Origin: Bacillota bacterium
GTDB lineage: Bacteria; Bacillota; Negativicutes; Sporomusales; CTSoil-080
Direction: 5' to 3'
DNA: 64,000 nt
Assembly: GCA_017889635.1 (NCBI GenBank)
Contig: JAGGAC010000018.1
Coordinates: 1-64,000 of the forward strand
In this document: positions 57,587-64,000 of the stretch, piece by piece
How the letters are laid out: every line of letters begins with the position of its first letter
Position numbering within the stretch: the stretch's first letter is position 1
Made by a program: the position numbers and the translations under genes
Notes under the pieces: generated by a model
What the model saw: the letters and a program-made list of their open reading frames with translations, nothing else
Told to the model about the DNA's origin: nothing
The model's database searches: none

Positions 57587-58336
57587 TTATACGCAATATC
57601 GCTTCTGAAACTCCTTGGCGTGTTCTAACGTCATCAGCGCAGTTTCTTTTGTATTTGCCAGCTTGACCAAATAAGTTTTATTCCCCCAGGGGAAGATCTC
57701 CACAACCATATCAGGGTTAATAATAAACCCCTTATGACAACGAAAGAACCGATACCTTGCCAAACGGTCTTCCAAACTCTGAAGCGACTCATTGGTCTGA
57801 ATAACGCTATCGCCTATAACATATATCATCGTTTTGCGCTCGCTGCGCGTCACTAAAATAATATCAGAAACATTTATAAATATACTTTTCTCATTGGACA
57901 GGACCTTAAGTTTAAACTGTTCACCTTCGAAAAACGTTTTTTCACGCTTGAAAAGAGCAGCTTGTTCTCTTCCTTTTTTAAGATTCTTAATCCGATTTAA
58001 CGTTTGCCGCACTCGCTGCTTATTAATTGGCTTAACCAAATAGTCAAAGGCATACACTTCAATAGCTTCATGAGTATAGCATTTATAGCCAGTGGCAAAA
58101 ATTATAAAAATTTGAGGGTTAATATCAAAAATTTCTCTGGCCGCCTCAAGACCGGTTCTTTCCGGCATATCAATATCCAAAAATACAACATCCGGCTCCA
58201 GATCTTCAACCATCTGAACCATTTGACATCCATCTTTTGCTTCACCGATGATATCTATCCCAGGAATTTCCCCAAGAACGTCTTTTAAAATCTGTCGCAT
58301 AAAAGAATCATCATCAGCAATAATTACCTTCAACAT
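57587..58336 (-). CDS. LytTR-family response regulator
   Basis: 249 residues. Receiver (about 1-120) with IIADDDS, VVFLDIDMPERTG (phospho-Asp) and LVKPINKQR; LytTR DNA-binding domain (about 145-245) with DIILVTRSERKT and FFRCHKGFIINPDMV. Such regulators bind direct repeats and often control cell-cell signalling or envelope genes. No partner kinase gene is adjacent. It faces the palindrome element at 58686-58763. Confidence 0.92.
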   Translation of the reverse strand: MLKVIIADDDSFMRQILKDVLGEIPGIDIIGEAKDGCQMVQMVEDLEPDVVFLDIDMPERTGLEAAREIFDINPQIFIIFATGYKCYTHEAIEVYAFDYLVKPINKQRVRQTLNRIKNLKKGREQAALFKREKTFFEGEQFKLKVLSNEKSIFINVSDIILVTRSERKTMIYVIGDSVIQTNESLQSLEDRLARYRFFRCHKGFIINPDMVVEIFPWGNKTYLVKLANTKETALMTLEHAKEFQKRYCV

Positions 58337-58491
58337 AGTTAAAATACCCCATCCCAAAAATGTTACTCATAATCTATAGCTGATCCGCCCTTGAAATTGC
58401 TTATCCGCTCCTGGAAAATTAAAATAAGCAACCTTAACTTTTTTAGCCCCCTTTCCTACAATATCAATAATAAATTGTCTATGACACAGTT

Positions 58492-58520
58492 ATAATTGCT
58501 CTACTAAATAGAGCAATTAT
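58492..58520. repeat. 12-bp perfect inverted repeat, 5-nt loop
   Basis: ATAATTGCTCTA (58492-58503) and TAGAGCAATTAT (58509-58520). No T-tract on either side, so it is not an ordinary terminator. It lies 156 nt upstream of the LytTR gene and could be an operator or RNA element. Confidence 0.6.
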
Positions 58521-58685
58521 CTTAAATAATGTTAATACACCACTTATTATGCCACTGTTTTCTTGGCGTTAAAGATATCCACCTGTTTATCAAAATAAAT
58601 CATATTACTTCCGCATATCCCAAAGCACACTGCGAATAACAGTACGAAGTATATTAATATATTTCCAAAGGTTCCATTGCACCTT

Positions 58686-58763
58686 AGTTCAATATACTAC
58701 ACTAATTTAATATTCACCATCACCCACATGAGCGATTTTTATAAAACATCATTTTTATATACT
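58686..58763. promoter_or_regulatory. Lux-box-like operator, site 1
   Basis: An 18-bp palindrome (ATCACCCACATGAGCGAT, 58719-58736, 6 of 9 pairs) sits beside a 14-bp block (AGTTCAATATACTA, 58686-58699) that recurs exactly at site 2 (62014-62065). On the plus strand TATACT at 58758-58763 puts the palindrome centre about 42 nt from the likely start, the position used by LuxR-type activators. On the minus strand TATATT at 58696-58691 gives a similar spacing, towards the LytTR gene. The 59063 gene is 327 nt downstream. Confidence 0.6.
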
Positions 58764-59062: not shown

Positions 59063-59920
59063 ATGTATATATCTGAGGCTGAACTATTACGGCTTAATAA
59101 AACTACTCTGGCAATACATGCATGTACAGATATTAACCTTTTTGAGATTACCCTGTTACGTAAATTACAAGAATTAGTTTTATACGATAATGGCGGCTAT
59201 TTTCATCCCGATCCAGCTACTCGCAGTATACCCAGTGGAATTTTATTAGATATTGACCCCCAAATATTTCAAAACTACAAAGCCATGTATGAAAAAATAG
59301 ATTTTTATTTAAAGCATCTATTTTCTACCACAATACTACTATCAACCGAACGAAGGTCTGACCATCCTGATTATCCCACTTGGCTAAAAATGCCCCACTT
59401 CACCGAATTTTATCTGCCTAACAAGCTCTATCACATGGCAGTTATTAACGTTGTAAATCTCGGAAACTTCTCTGGAAGAATATGCATGTACAGAAAACAA
59501 TCACGGGATGGTTTTAGCGATAATGAAATGCTACTGTTCAAATTAGCGAGTATGCATATTCAAGCGGTATATGGAAATCTCAAAGCAGCAGAGTTATTCA
59601 CCGACAATTGGAAGAAATTAAACCAATCGACTCAAGCAATATGTCTTTTTGATCAAAACTTCAATTGTATTTATTGTAATCACCGGGCAAATATGCTATT
59701 TAAGCAACATTCCGTTCATCACTTATATTCTAATATCCACGAAATTTGCCGAAGCTTCGCCGCCAACTACTATAACACATTCTATACGCCCCAATATTCT
59801 GGAACACTAAGTTATACTAGAACCAAAATAAATTATAGCTGTACTTCCTATATTTATCACGAACAGCGATATTTCCAAATTGTATTTGATTACCATATTA
59901 AATTAATTTTGTTTAAGTAA
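59063..59920 (+). CDS. Paralogue of the LuxR-type regulator, lacking the HTH
   Basis: 285 residues. It is clearly homologous over its whole length to residues 1-285 of the 60111 protein: YDNGGYFHPDP, HMAVINVVN, CMYRKQSRD and CLFDQNF in the same order. It has a GAF-like sensor part (about 1-175) and a PAS-like part (about 190-283), then stops where the other continues into its HTH. No HTH remnant is evident in the 190 nt that follow. It may titrate or heterodimerise with the full-length regulator, or be a decayed copy. ATG at 59063 aligns with the paralogue; AAGGATG precedes it. Confidence 0.75.
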   Translation: MYISEAELLRLNKTTLAIHACTDINLFEITLLRKLQELVLYDNGGYFHPDPATRSIPSGILLDIDPQIFQNYKAMYEKIDFYLKHLFSTTILLSTERRSDHPDYPTWLKMPHFTEFYLPNKLYHMAVINVVNLGNFSGRICMYRKQSRDGFSDNEMLLFKLASMHIQAVYGNLKAAELFTDNWKKLNQSTQAICLFDQNFNCIYCNHRANMLFKQHSVHHLYSNIHEICRSFAANYYNTFYTPQYSGTLSYTRTKINYSCTSYIYHEQRYFQIVFDYHIKLILFK

Positions 59921-60110
59921 ACACCACCAACCAAACCATCATCGACTTCTGTATCGAAGTTACTAATTTTAACTGAAATTAATAAACTATCAAATTATTG
60001 TTCTCTGTTGCTTTAATAGCCCTTACCCCTTCTCGACTTCAATAAATAACCAGTATTGATCAATTTAAGAGTATAATTCCATTAAGCAAGCAGATGAGGG
60101 TGAGCTTTCG

Positions 60111-61193
60111 ATGTATATATCAGAAAATGAACTGCTTCGGTTCAATGACATTGTTATGGCACTGCATGAATGCGCCAGTCTGGACTTATTTGAAAGTACT
60201 CTTTTATACAATTTGCGAAAATTAGTTATATATGATAATGGCGGCTATTTTCATCCTGACCCAATTACTCGCAGTATAATTGGCGGAAAATTATTAGATA
60301 CTGACCCGCAGATATTTAAAAACTATAAAAATACGTATGAAAAGTACGACTTTCACTTAAACCATTTATTTTCTACAAAAGTATTACCTACCGAGCGCAG
60401 ATCCGATTCTACCTATTTTAAGACTTGGAAAAAATCTCCCAGTTTTACCGAATTCTATCAGGCTAATAATCTCTATCATATGGCAGTTATTAATGTGGTA
60501 AATCAAGACAACTTTACTGGAAGAGTTTGCATGTACAGAAAACAATCACGGGATGATTTCAGCGATAGCGAAATGATACTCTTCCATTTATTAAGCGACC
60601 ATATCCAATCAGTATATGCCAAGCTTCGAACGGCTGAGCTATGCTCCGGAGCCTGGAACGTATTGGAACATTCCGCTCAAGGAGTATGTCTTTTTGACCA
60701 GAATCTTCATTGTTTTTATGTCAATCAACAAGCAAATTTTTTATTTAAGCAAAATTCCTTTCACGACCTATATTACCGCTTGCAAGAAATCTGCCGCGAA
60801 TTCGCCGTCTTTAATCGTGGCTCATACTATACGCCAACCCGGGCCGGAACACTTGATTATAAGTTTTTCACGATAAATTATAGTTGCTTTTCCTACAATC
60901 ATAATGAAAAGCAATATATTCAAATCGTTTTTGACTATTACGAAAAAGAAACCTACTCAAATATGAAAAAAAAGCATAAAGATCTTTTCACCGAACGGGA
61001 AAAAATGATTATTGAACTTATTGCTCAGGGAAAAACCAATAAAGAAATAAGCAACCTGTTAATAATTAGCCTAAATACCGTGAAAACCCATATAAAAAAC
61101 ATGCTGCTGAAAACAGGCACGCCTTCACGGGCTGCCCTCGCAGTCAAAGCCTTGCCGCACTTTGCCTCCGCCAACTGCTCTCACAAGCAATAA
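60111..61193 (+). CDS. LuxR-type transcriptional regulator with GAF/PAS-like sensor region
   Basis: 360 residues. Sensor region as in the 59063 paralogue (about 1-285), then a LuxR HTH: LFTEREKMIIELIAQGKTNKEI and SLNTVKTHIKNMLLKTGTPSR. It has no receiver domain, so it is ligand-controlled rather than phosphorylated. GAGGGTG lies 9 nt before the ATG. Next to a LuxI/FeeM-like gene, it is the obvious candidate receptor for its product. Confidence 0.85.
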   Translation: MYISENELLRFNDIVMALHECASLDLFESTLLYNLRKLVIYDNGGYFHPDPITRSIIGGKLLDTDPQIFKNYKNTYEKYDFHLNHLFSTKVLPTERRSDSTYFKTWKKSPSFTEFYQANNLYHMAVINVVNQDNFTGRVCMYRKQSRDDFSDSEMILFHLLSDHIQSVYAKLRTAELCSGAWNVLEHSAQGVCLFDQNLHCFYVNQQANFLFKQNSFHDLYYRLQEICREFAVFNRGSYYTPTRAGTLDYKFFTINYSCFSYNHNEKQYIQIVFDYYEKETYSNMKKKHKDLFTEREKMIIELIAQGKTNKEISNLLIISLNTVKTHIKNMLLKTGTPSRAALAVKALPHFASANCSHKQ

Positions 61194-61260
61194 TAAATTA
61201 GAACCAACCTGAAGCCTCTATACCATTTTAATATAATATTCTTTACTGCCCTCAAAATAA

Positions 61261-61304
61261 AGAATAGCTAAGGCTCTACTAATGGAGCACAGCTATTCTT
61301 TTTC
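61261..61304. terminator. Bidirectional terminator between the regulator and the acyltransferase gene
   Basis: AGAATAGCT (61261-61269) pairs with AGCTATTCT (61291-61299), with inner GCTC/GAGC; TTTTT follows on the plus strand and AAAATA precedes, so it can act both ways. Confidence 0.85.
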
Positions 61305-61354
61305 GTTCAACTATACAATTCATCGTAATACTACTTTAGATATCGACTTAATTT

Positions 61355-61957
61355 TTAGGAAACACTACGCATTATTCTGGGCATTTCAATACGAGGCAGA
61401 ATACCTCTGAGTGTTCGATATTTTCGTGCATCAAGCTCATATATAAAGTCTTTAGGTTCAGCCTTCCACACGCACACTTCTCCAATAGAACCATACATAC
61501 ATTCTCCCGCCATTTTAAATCCCAGTTTAGGCATCATTGTTATCACTGGTTTATTTTCCTTTTTAGAGACATTAACCACAACGCCACATTTACAATATTT
61601 TGCAAACAGCCAGAGAAAGTAATATGACGCCAGCGATACTGTCGAACCTCGGTGTTCCTTAATAATAGCATGCCTAGAATAATACATTAGCGTTCCATAT
61701 TGCTCATAGTATGACTTAAAATCGAAATACCGTTCTAATGATATCGAACCTGGCAATTTGCCTACTTCACAGGTCGCTGTCGCTATAGGAATGTCACCTT
61801 TCTTCCATAATATATGATACTCATTTGGATTATTTCCAACTACTAGATCTTGTTTAGAATAGCCTTGCTCTTTACCAAAAACCTCACTTCTCACATAAAA
61901 AACATCCTGCAAGTCCTCTTTAGTTTCCGCTAAATGCATTGTAATCTTTCCACTCAT
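61355..61957 (-). CDS. LuxI/FeeM-like N-acyltransferase (GNAT fold)
   Basis: 200 residues. The layout is that of autoinducer/N-acyl amino acid synthases: VRSEVFGKEQGYSKQD (R..VF..E...), then EYHILWKKGDIPIATATCEV, LERYFDF, YYSRHAIIKEHRGS (like the ISRF strand of LuxI), and a C-terminal KLGFKMAGECMYG. FeeM-type enzymes make N-acyl amino acids from acyl-ACP; LuxI makes acyl-homoserine lactones. Which product, if any, is made is unknown; a plain GNAT is the alternative. GGTGG lies upstream of the ATG at 61957. Confidence 0.7.
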   Translation of the reverse strand: MSGKITMHLAETKEDLQDVFYVRSEVFGKEQGYSKQDLVVGNNPNEYHILWKKGDIPIATATCEVGKLPGSISLERYFDFKSYYEQYGTLMYYSRHAIIKEHRGSTVSLASYYFLWLFAKYCKCGVVVNVSKKENKPVITMMPKLGFKMAGECMYGSIGEVCVWKAEPKDFIYELDARKYRTLRGILPRIEMPRIMRSVS

Positions 61958-62013
61958 AACACCATTCCACCCAACTTTGTTTATTTATACATATCCTTGT
62001 TCGAAATTCGACA

Positions 62014-62065
62014 AGTTCAATATACTATAACTTGATTAATCAATACCATCGCCCATATGGGTGAT
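62014..62065. promoter_or_regulatory. Lux-box-like operator, site 2 (acyltransferase promoter)
   Basis: An 18-bp palindrome (ATCGCCCATATGGGTGAT, 62048-62065, 8 of 9 pairs) with the 14-bp AGTTCAATATACTA block at 62014-62027. The minus strand reads TATATT at 62024-62019 as -10, about 32 nt from the palindrome centre, which suits activation of the acyltransferase gene (its ATG is at 61957). 14 of 18 palindrome bases equal site 1. Confidence 0.65.
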
Positions 62066-62248: not shown

Positions 62249-62464
62249 TTGGAAGAATTTAAATCAGCCTCATATGATTCCATATTTTCCCACTCAACCC
62301 CAAACGAAATAACTTTATTCTTTTTTTTATTAGGTCTTTCTGTTGAGCAATCATTAACCATTGATGAACTTAATAGCCTGGCAAATGGATTATTTTTAAT
62401 GGCGCAAGTAATGTTCACTATTGCTGCCCAATTAAATACTTGCAAAAACAAATTGACGAATTGA
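62249..62464 (+). CDS. Small hypothetical protein
   Basis: 71 residues with an acidic, polar start (EEFKSASYDSIFSHSTPNE) and a long hydrophobic-amphipathic helix pair (ITLFFFLLGLSVEQ and LANGLFLMAQVMFTIAAQLN). TTG start at 62249 lies 7 nt after GAGGTG, a good site. Not recognised. It is read away from the acyltransferase gene and may share the operator region at 62014-62065. Confidence 0.6.
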   Translation: MEEFKSASYDSIFSHSTPNEITLFFFLLGLSVEQSLTIDELNSLANGLFLMAQVMFTIAAQLNTCKNKLTN

Positions 62465-62878: not shown

Positions 62879-64000
62879 ATGGGAATCGGAACTTACGAAG
62901 CATATAAAGAGCGCCTACTCAAAATGAAACCCAATGTATATTTAAATGGTAAAGCGGTTGACCGTTCAGGCAGCTGGATTGATGGTGGCTGTTATGTTAT
63001 GAAGCAGACCTATGATATGGCCAATGATCCTGAGTTTGAGGATGTATGCACGGCGACCTCTCACCTTACTGGTAAAAAAATTAATCGTTTCACTCACATT
63101 CATCAATCCAAAGAAGACTTACTCAAAAAGCAACTGATGACAAGGTTACTCTGCCACCGTGTTGGCGGCTGCACACAACGTTGCATGGGTGCCGACGCAC
63201 TCAACTCTATTGCTGTAGTCAGCTATGATTGCGATCAGGCTTGTGGCACCAACTATCATGAACGTTTCAACAAGTATCTTTTATATTGCCAAGAAAATGA
63301 CCTTATTTGCAACTGTGCTCAGACTGACGTAAAGGGTTCCCGCAATCCTAAGTACAAGAGAGCACATATGCAGCCTGATCCGGATCAGTTTGTACACGTA
63401 ATTAAGACAAATGTGGACGGCATAGGCGTTGACGGAAAACCCTGTAAAGGTATTATCGTCCGCGGTGCAAAAATCTGTAACTCTAATGCTCCTTATGTTG
63501 ATGAAATCATCGTCAATCCGACCAAGTTTATGGGTAAGGGCGACGAAGGCTATGCAATATCCTTTGCACTGCCAGCTGATTGGGATGGCATTAAGCTAAT
63601 GGCTCTTCCTGGCCAGCATCATAAGAGAAAACACATTCAGGCTCCATTTAACCAGGTTGGCGACGTAGAATCCCTGACCATTTTTGATGATGTTTTCGTT
63701 CCTGAAGATAGAGTATTCATGAATGGTTTTGACCATCCTGATGTGCTTCAATTCGCTGGTTATCTTGCACTTATGTTCGCTCATTTCCACAGACATTCGT
63801 ACACCGGCTGCAAAACTGCAGTATCAGAGGTTATCGCGGCTCAGGCAGCTCTGGTTGCCGATGTAAATGATATTGCCCAGGAGCATCACGTTCGTGAAAA
63901 AGTTTGTGAAATAATCAGTACCGCCGAGCTTGTATTCGCCGCCGGTGAGGCTTCTGCATATCGTGCAGTTAAATTCCCTAACGGCTCTTGGGTACCGGAT
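62879..64000 (+). CDS. abfD: 4-hydroxybutyryl-CoA dehydratase / vinylacetyl-CoA isomerase, N-terminal part
   Basis: 374 residues are visible; the gene continues past the right edge (family about 490). Iron-sulfur ligand positions fit C98 and C102 in GGCTQRCMG and H304/C311 in HFHRHSYTGC, the Cys-Cys-His-Cys pattern of AbfD. The 4-hydroxyphenylacetate-hydroxylase fold and flavin site agree (SFALPADWDGIKLM). It dehydrates 4-hydroxybutyryl-CoA to crotonyl-CoA, in GABA, succinate or 4-hydroxybutyrate fermentation. AGGAGG sits 7 nt before the ATG. Controlled by the sigma-54 promoter upstream. A long minus-strand frame over it is a shadow. Confidence 0.93.
   Translation, partial: MGIGTYEAYKERLLKMKPNVYLNGKAVDRSGSWIDGGCYVMKQTYDMANDPEFEDVCTATSHLTGKKINRFTHIHQSKEDLLKKQLMTRLLCHRVGGCTQRCMGADALNSIAVVSYDCDQACGTNYHERFNKYLLYCQENDLICNCAQTDVKGSRNPKYKRAHMQPDPDQFVHVIKTNVDGIGVDGKPCKGIIVRGAKICNSNAPYVDEIIVNPTKFMGKGDEGYAISFALPADWDGIKLMALPGQHHKRKHIQAPFNQVGDVESLTIFDDVFVPEDRVFMNGFDHPDVLQFAGYLALMFAHFHRHSYTGCKTAVSEVIAAQAALVADVNDIAQEHHVREKVCEIISTAELVFAAGEASAYRAVKFPNGSWVPD

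Follow-up and report, generated by a model that had tools for sequence, protein, structure and literature searches.

Whether a Firmicute, belonging to a group known for peptide quorum sensing, might run a circuit laid out like LuxI/LuxR is the question raised by three neighboring genes in the 64,000-nucleotide stretch of DNA analyzed here (the window), which comes from a 4.5-Mb genome (G000) of an anaerobic diderm Firmicute. To our knowledge, acyl signals with dedicated LuxR-type receptors have hardly been documented in Firmicutes. A preliminary description of the window had reported an acyltransferase (61355..61957, minus strand, 200 aa), a LuxR-type regulator (60111..61193, plus strand), and a paralogue of the regulator without a helix-turn-helix (HTH) domain (59063..59920, plus strand); all three open reading frames are present at these coordinates, and all three genes are real. 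Its remark that acyl-homoserine-lactone (AHL) systems are essentially unknown in Firmicutes needs some qualification: a predicted LuxI/LuxR is listed in Syntrophaceticus and an AHL report for Exiguobacterium is cited in the same source (PMC5539150). The locus was compared with those of three relatives (G038, G002, and G049), and about 380 genomes of the class were surveyed.

The identity of the enzyme was addressed by profile searches and structure prediction. The protein had no match of its own in Pfam or NCBIfam, and PF00765 (LuxI) among these profiles did not match it. Profile-profile comparison with LuxI gave a probability of 0.6% (E 0.1). When residues invariant in eight aligned LuxI proteins (R25, W35, E44, D46, D49, R70, E101, R104, and others) were sought, R25, L80, and R104 were present, as was D46 by placement; W35 is replaced by Y or a gap, E44 by K, D49 by V, R70 by T, and E101 by Y. 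Membership among the LuxI/AHL synthases was rejected on the profile probability and the loss of R70, E101, W35, and D49, and by these sequence tests the enzyme is not a LuxI. FeeM-like GNATs gave a weak link in profile comparison (probability 22%, E 1e-3, residues 2-148), and the G038 orthologue matched Pfam FeeM (PF21926) at 20.1 bits (E 6e-4), under the curated cut-off of 27, with no such match for the window protein.

The GNAT-type fold is common to all GNATs. An AlphaFold model built from a 19-row alignment reached a pLDDT of 73; one built from two sequences only (pLDDT 39) was set aside. The top fold match was SACOL1063 (Z 16.6 over 138 residues), with FeeM (PDB 2g0b) at Z 16.1 over 163 residues (TMq 0.62; structural alignment identity about 6-10%); the small GNATs SACOL1063, 3efa, and YjcF score equal to FeeM, and the AHL synthases BjaI, RpaI, and LasI follow behind FeeM and the small GNATs at Z 14-14.6 over 163-177 residues. 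The model leans towards FeeM because its alignment contains remote FeeM-like GNAT rows, and since these rows helped shape the model, the fold match is support and not proof. We place the enzyme among the GNATs, with a predicted fold that best matches FeeM and some small GNATs. Of the earlier label, "LuxI/FeeM-like," the LuxI half is contradicted by both the profile and the residues, and the FeeM half fares better, with a GNAT fold, FeeM among the best fold matches, and an orthologue profile match below cut-off.

Searches for the acyltransferase in genome contigs found nothing, as did viral and plasmid searches, and a phylum-wide search returned weak small-GNAT matches only. Pfam FeeM matches elsewhere in the class, at L064 and L087, were rejected as orthologues, being GNATs joined to a region resembling a cyclic-nucleotide-binding domain; proteins of this architecture (376-435 aa), encoded beside a PAS histidine kinase, occur in many Sporomusales genomes, these two loci included. 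A PF00765 match in G003 (262 aa) was likewise discarded, as its gene adjoins a PlsC-like acyltransferase and it looks like an OlsB-type lipid enzyme.

The regulator comprises a sensor region (residues 1-175), a PAS-like region (180-278), and a GerE/LuxR HTH (292-347; Pfam E=4e-16). No Pfam match to an autoinducer-binding domain was found in it, and profile comparison with four LuxR receptors gave 0.1%. Its description as a full-length LuxR-type regulator with a ligand-type sensor is thereby borne out for the HTH, and the sensor does not qualify as an AHL-binding domain. The sensor is homologous to that of stand-alone LuxR-type regulators of 255-260 aa in Sporomusales (E 2e-26). Stand-alone regulators with this sensor were seen at L037, L038, L039, and L041; at L038, L039, and L041 a metA-like gene adjoins the regulator, and there is no acyltransferase. 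The HTH-less paralogue, which consists of the sensor and PAS-like region only, is 62% identical to the regulator and has an HTH-less orthologue in G002. Between G000 and G002 its dN/dS is 0.19 (NG86) or 0.25 (YN00), similar to that of the full-length gene; at a dN/dS of about 0.2, the paralogue is evolving under purifying selection and is an old gene.

Two sites in the window, at 58719..58736 (ATCACCCACATGAGCGAT, operator 1, between a response-regulator gene and the HTH-less paralogue) and 62048..62065 (ATCGCCCATATGGGTGAT, operator 2, upstream of the acyltransferase), match ATCRCCCAYATGRGYGAT, with 4 strand-matches seen against 0.30 expected. Allowing up to 2 mismatches, the 4.5-Mb genome has just two intergenic copies of the 18-bp palindrome; the closest other matches (1-2 mismatches) fall within coding genes and were set aside. 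Operator 1 shows a symmetry of only 6/9 in the window, and the pair was not picked up by a strict palindrome test that was confined to the window and required 7/9 symmetry. The operators were accepted as real because they are conserved across genomes: orthologous operators occupy both places in G038, where that of operator 2 is 9/9 symmetric, and one place, that of operator 1, in G002, giving five operators in three genomes.

When read towards the acyltransferase or the response regulator, all five promoters show a TAGTA(T/C) box at a distance of 28-29 nt from the centre of the operator. In the window, predicted -10 elements TAGTAT stand at 58694..58699 (minus strand; 28 nt from the centre of operator 1, with the same spacing in G038 and G002, TAGTAC) and at 62022..62027 (minus strand; 29 nt from the centre of operator 2, identical in G038). 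The direct repeat AGTTCAATATACTA is this TAGTA(T/C) -10 region. An earlier TAGTAA is also present in G038, the conserved box being the second one. A shared 5-mer arose at a matched position in 10 of 5000 shuffles, and a generic scan for promoters found no more of them than chance would give. The spacing would therefore place the operator centre near -41, the position of the lux box, which is a LuxR-type activator site about -42 upstream of a synthase gene. As predicted from sequence, the operator-promoter layout is a lux-box-like activator geometry, and the predicted placement upstream of the synthase gene, at about -42, is kept in both G000 and G038; from the spacing, we infer that the regulation is activation. 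Box spacing and direction together make the acyltransferase gene and the response-regulator gene the predicted targets, and comparison of the operators across the three genomes gave no conserved spacing in support of rightward activation of the regulator genes. The preliminary description had the three genes tied together by operators shared by two promoters. The operators stand, with conservation in two other genomes added, and the targets shift to the acyltransferase and the response regulator (57587-58333), which had been left out of the circuit, and are not clearly the regulator genes.

A small open reading frame with a good ribosome-binding site (62249-62464) lies on the other side of operator 2 and runs divergently from the acyltransferase; no similar protein was found at the same place in G038. 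Positions 62879-64000 hold the start of a 523-aa gene with a family match, below cut-off, to HpaB-type 4-hydroxyphenylacetate 3-monooxygenase; it is perhaps a 4-hydroxybutyryl-CoA dehydratase.

The response regulator (57587..58333, minus strand) is LytTR/AgrA-like, with Response_reg and LytTR domains in Pfam, and connects the locus to a biosynthetic cluster. Its orthologues in G038 and G002, which adjoin the same locus, share 73-74% identity with it and have downstream of them a LoaP-type NusG paralogue, a type II thioesterase, and NRPS or FAAL genes. The LoaP-like protein scored 122.2 bits against NF033641, for which the cut-off is 125. In G000 the same cluster is unlinked, on contig C109, where its genes extend as far as a 6234-aa NRPS, beside a recombinase-like fragment. 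A promoter-like block and leader before loaP are conserved in six genomes; the leaders compared were those of G000 C109 (L105 4017-4250), L016, L103, L136, L137, and L138. They form two stems with a GAGG loop, in which five pairs covary with changes on both sides across the six genomes, and TCGAC repeats about 30 nt apart precede loaP in G000, G002, and G038. The leader and promoter-like block are candidates for the LoaP RNA target and the response-regulator site, respectively.

The input to this cluster takes another form in G049, where an AgrC-like kinase, AgrB (E=3e-31), and a 47-aa AgrD-like open reading frame come ahead of the response regulator-LoaP-thioesterase block, and where the response regulator of the Agr operon is 69% identical to that of the window. 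No relatives of AgrB or AgrC were found by tblastn on the window, on C109, or on the whole G038 contig. The genomes compared have the output in common and differ in the input, which is the proposed LuxR-type circuit or, in G049, Agr. In the response-regulator leaders, at the position of the AgrD-like frame of G049, small hydrophobic open frames were observed (L016 8649-8928 and window 58334-58719, both on the minus strand); the frame spans 46 aa in G038 and has no ATG start in G000, and these frames are possibly vestigial agrD.

Among the roughly 380 genomes surveyed, the acyltransferase was found only in G000 and G038, which belong to different families, at 74% identity. In G038 the regulator and acyltransferase genes are again convergent and both operators are present, with one regulator only. 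Regulator, acyltransferase, and both operators are co-conserved, at 74% protein identity. Values of dN/dS for the acyltransferase, response regulator, and regulators were 0.13-0.19 (NG86). G002, from the same family as G000, has an operator, the HTH-less copy, and the start of the second copy, and its contig ends before the acyltransferase would appear; this genome appears to be the MAG CTSoil_082, described as Sporomusales UBA7701 from polyphenol-amended wetland soil (PMC8084988). The circuit logic first proposed, in which a synthase-type enzyme and a LuxR-type regulator go with a shared operator ahead of the gene for the enzyme, stands and recurs in another genome.

In the circuit that we propose, the FeeM-like GNAT, as candidate signal synthase, would make a small N-acylated molecule; this would probably be an N-acyl amino acid or amine, as opposed to an AHL. 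The LuxR-type regulator would sense this product through a sensor domain whose sequence is unrelated to that of the AHL-binding domain. Once loaded, the regulator would bind the 18-bp palindromes at about -41 and activate two promoters, those of its own synthase gene, in positive feedback, and of the AgrA/LytTR-like response-regulator gene, whose product, together with the LoaP-type antiterminator, would act on the lipopeptide NRPS cluster. A probable role for the HTH-less paralogue is to tune the switch, by forming inactive heterodimers or holding ligand. The module would sit at the place held by the Agr peptide system in the related cluster, and we judge it reasonably probable that a non-AHL circuit with an inferred acyl signal replaced Agr, or alternates with it, as the input to the NRPS cluster. 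The more specific proposal, that in diderm Firmicutes a non-AHL acyl-signal quorum-sensing system, with a synthase of FeeM type and a kind of receptor domain new to such systems, took over the AgrA/LoaP/NRPS cluster from Agr in an input swap with one conserved output, we advance tentatively.

Cluster-specific regulation without cell-cell signaling would fit the inclusion of the locus in the NRPS cluster in G038 and G002 and the equally good match of small CoA-dependent GNATs to the fold. The acyltransferase would then serve to tailor the NRPS product or in self-protection, and the regulator would sense that product or an intermediate. We consider this unlikely, given that the enzyme gene is driven by an operator-controlled promoter of its own and is separated from the biosynthetic genes by the regulator, that it remains with the regulator and not with the NRPS where the cluster is split (G000), and that an Agr peptide system occupies the same place in G049. 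It is more doubtful still that the regulator responds to a ligand from the environment, for example to breakdown products of plant polyphenols in wetland soil, and that the product of the enzyme is a surface-active N-acyl amino acid with no signaling role: the polyphenol-amended origin of CTSoil_082 (PMC8084988) and the related sensor domains in Sporomusales regulators without an acyltransferase nearby speak for such a ligand, yet it would leave unexplained both the swap with Agr and the dedicated feedback operator at the enzyme gene, which is conserved across two families. A true LuxI/LuxR AHL system too divergent for sequence recognition, which the circuit layout and the fit of BjaI, RpaI, and LasI to the fold (Z 14-14.6 over 163-177 residues) would allow, is very improbable in view of the 0.6% LuxI profile probability, the loss of R70, E101, W35, and D49, and a receptor without an AHL-binding domain.

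If the acyl-signal circuit works as read here, it would constitute a new class of signal synthase-receptor pair and a natural exchange of one quorum-sensing input for another upstream of the same output cluster, and would offer a handle to switch on a silent lipopeptide cluster in anaerobes. The question of whether FeeM-type enzymes make signals at all becomes testable.

Set against known systems, the NusG paralogue before NRPS genes and the structured leader upstream resemble the LoaP antiterminators of biosynthetic operons (PMC12691694), from which the present case differs in its score (122 bits against a cut-off of 125) and in a leader hairpin loop of GAGG and not of UNCG type. With Agr (AgrBDCA), the locus shares the AgrA/LytTR-like response regulator before the same LoaP-thioesterase block, as well as its place, which Agr genes hold in G049; AgrB, AgrC, and a clear AgrD are absent from the locus, and the response-regulator gene has a LuxR-type operator instead. 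The FeeM N-acyl amino acid synthase (PF21926, PDB 2g0b) has in common with the enzyme the GNAT fold and the weak profile match of the G038 orthologue, whereas here the match is below the Pfam cut-off and the enzyme is paired with a LuxR-type regulator and operators. The layout would work like LuxI/LuxR quorum sensing, with a synthase gene beside a LuxR-HTH regulator and a predicted positive-feedback operator near -42 upstream of the synthase, whereas by the tests made both enzyme and receptor appear to fall outside those families: the synthase is without the LuxI residues and profile, the sensor domain is unrelated by profile, the regulator has an extra PAS-like region, and the second predicted target is an AgrA-like response regulator.
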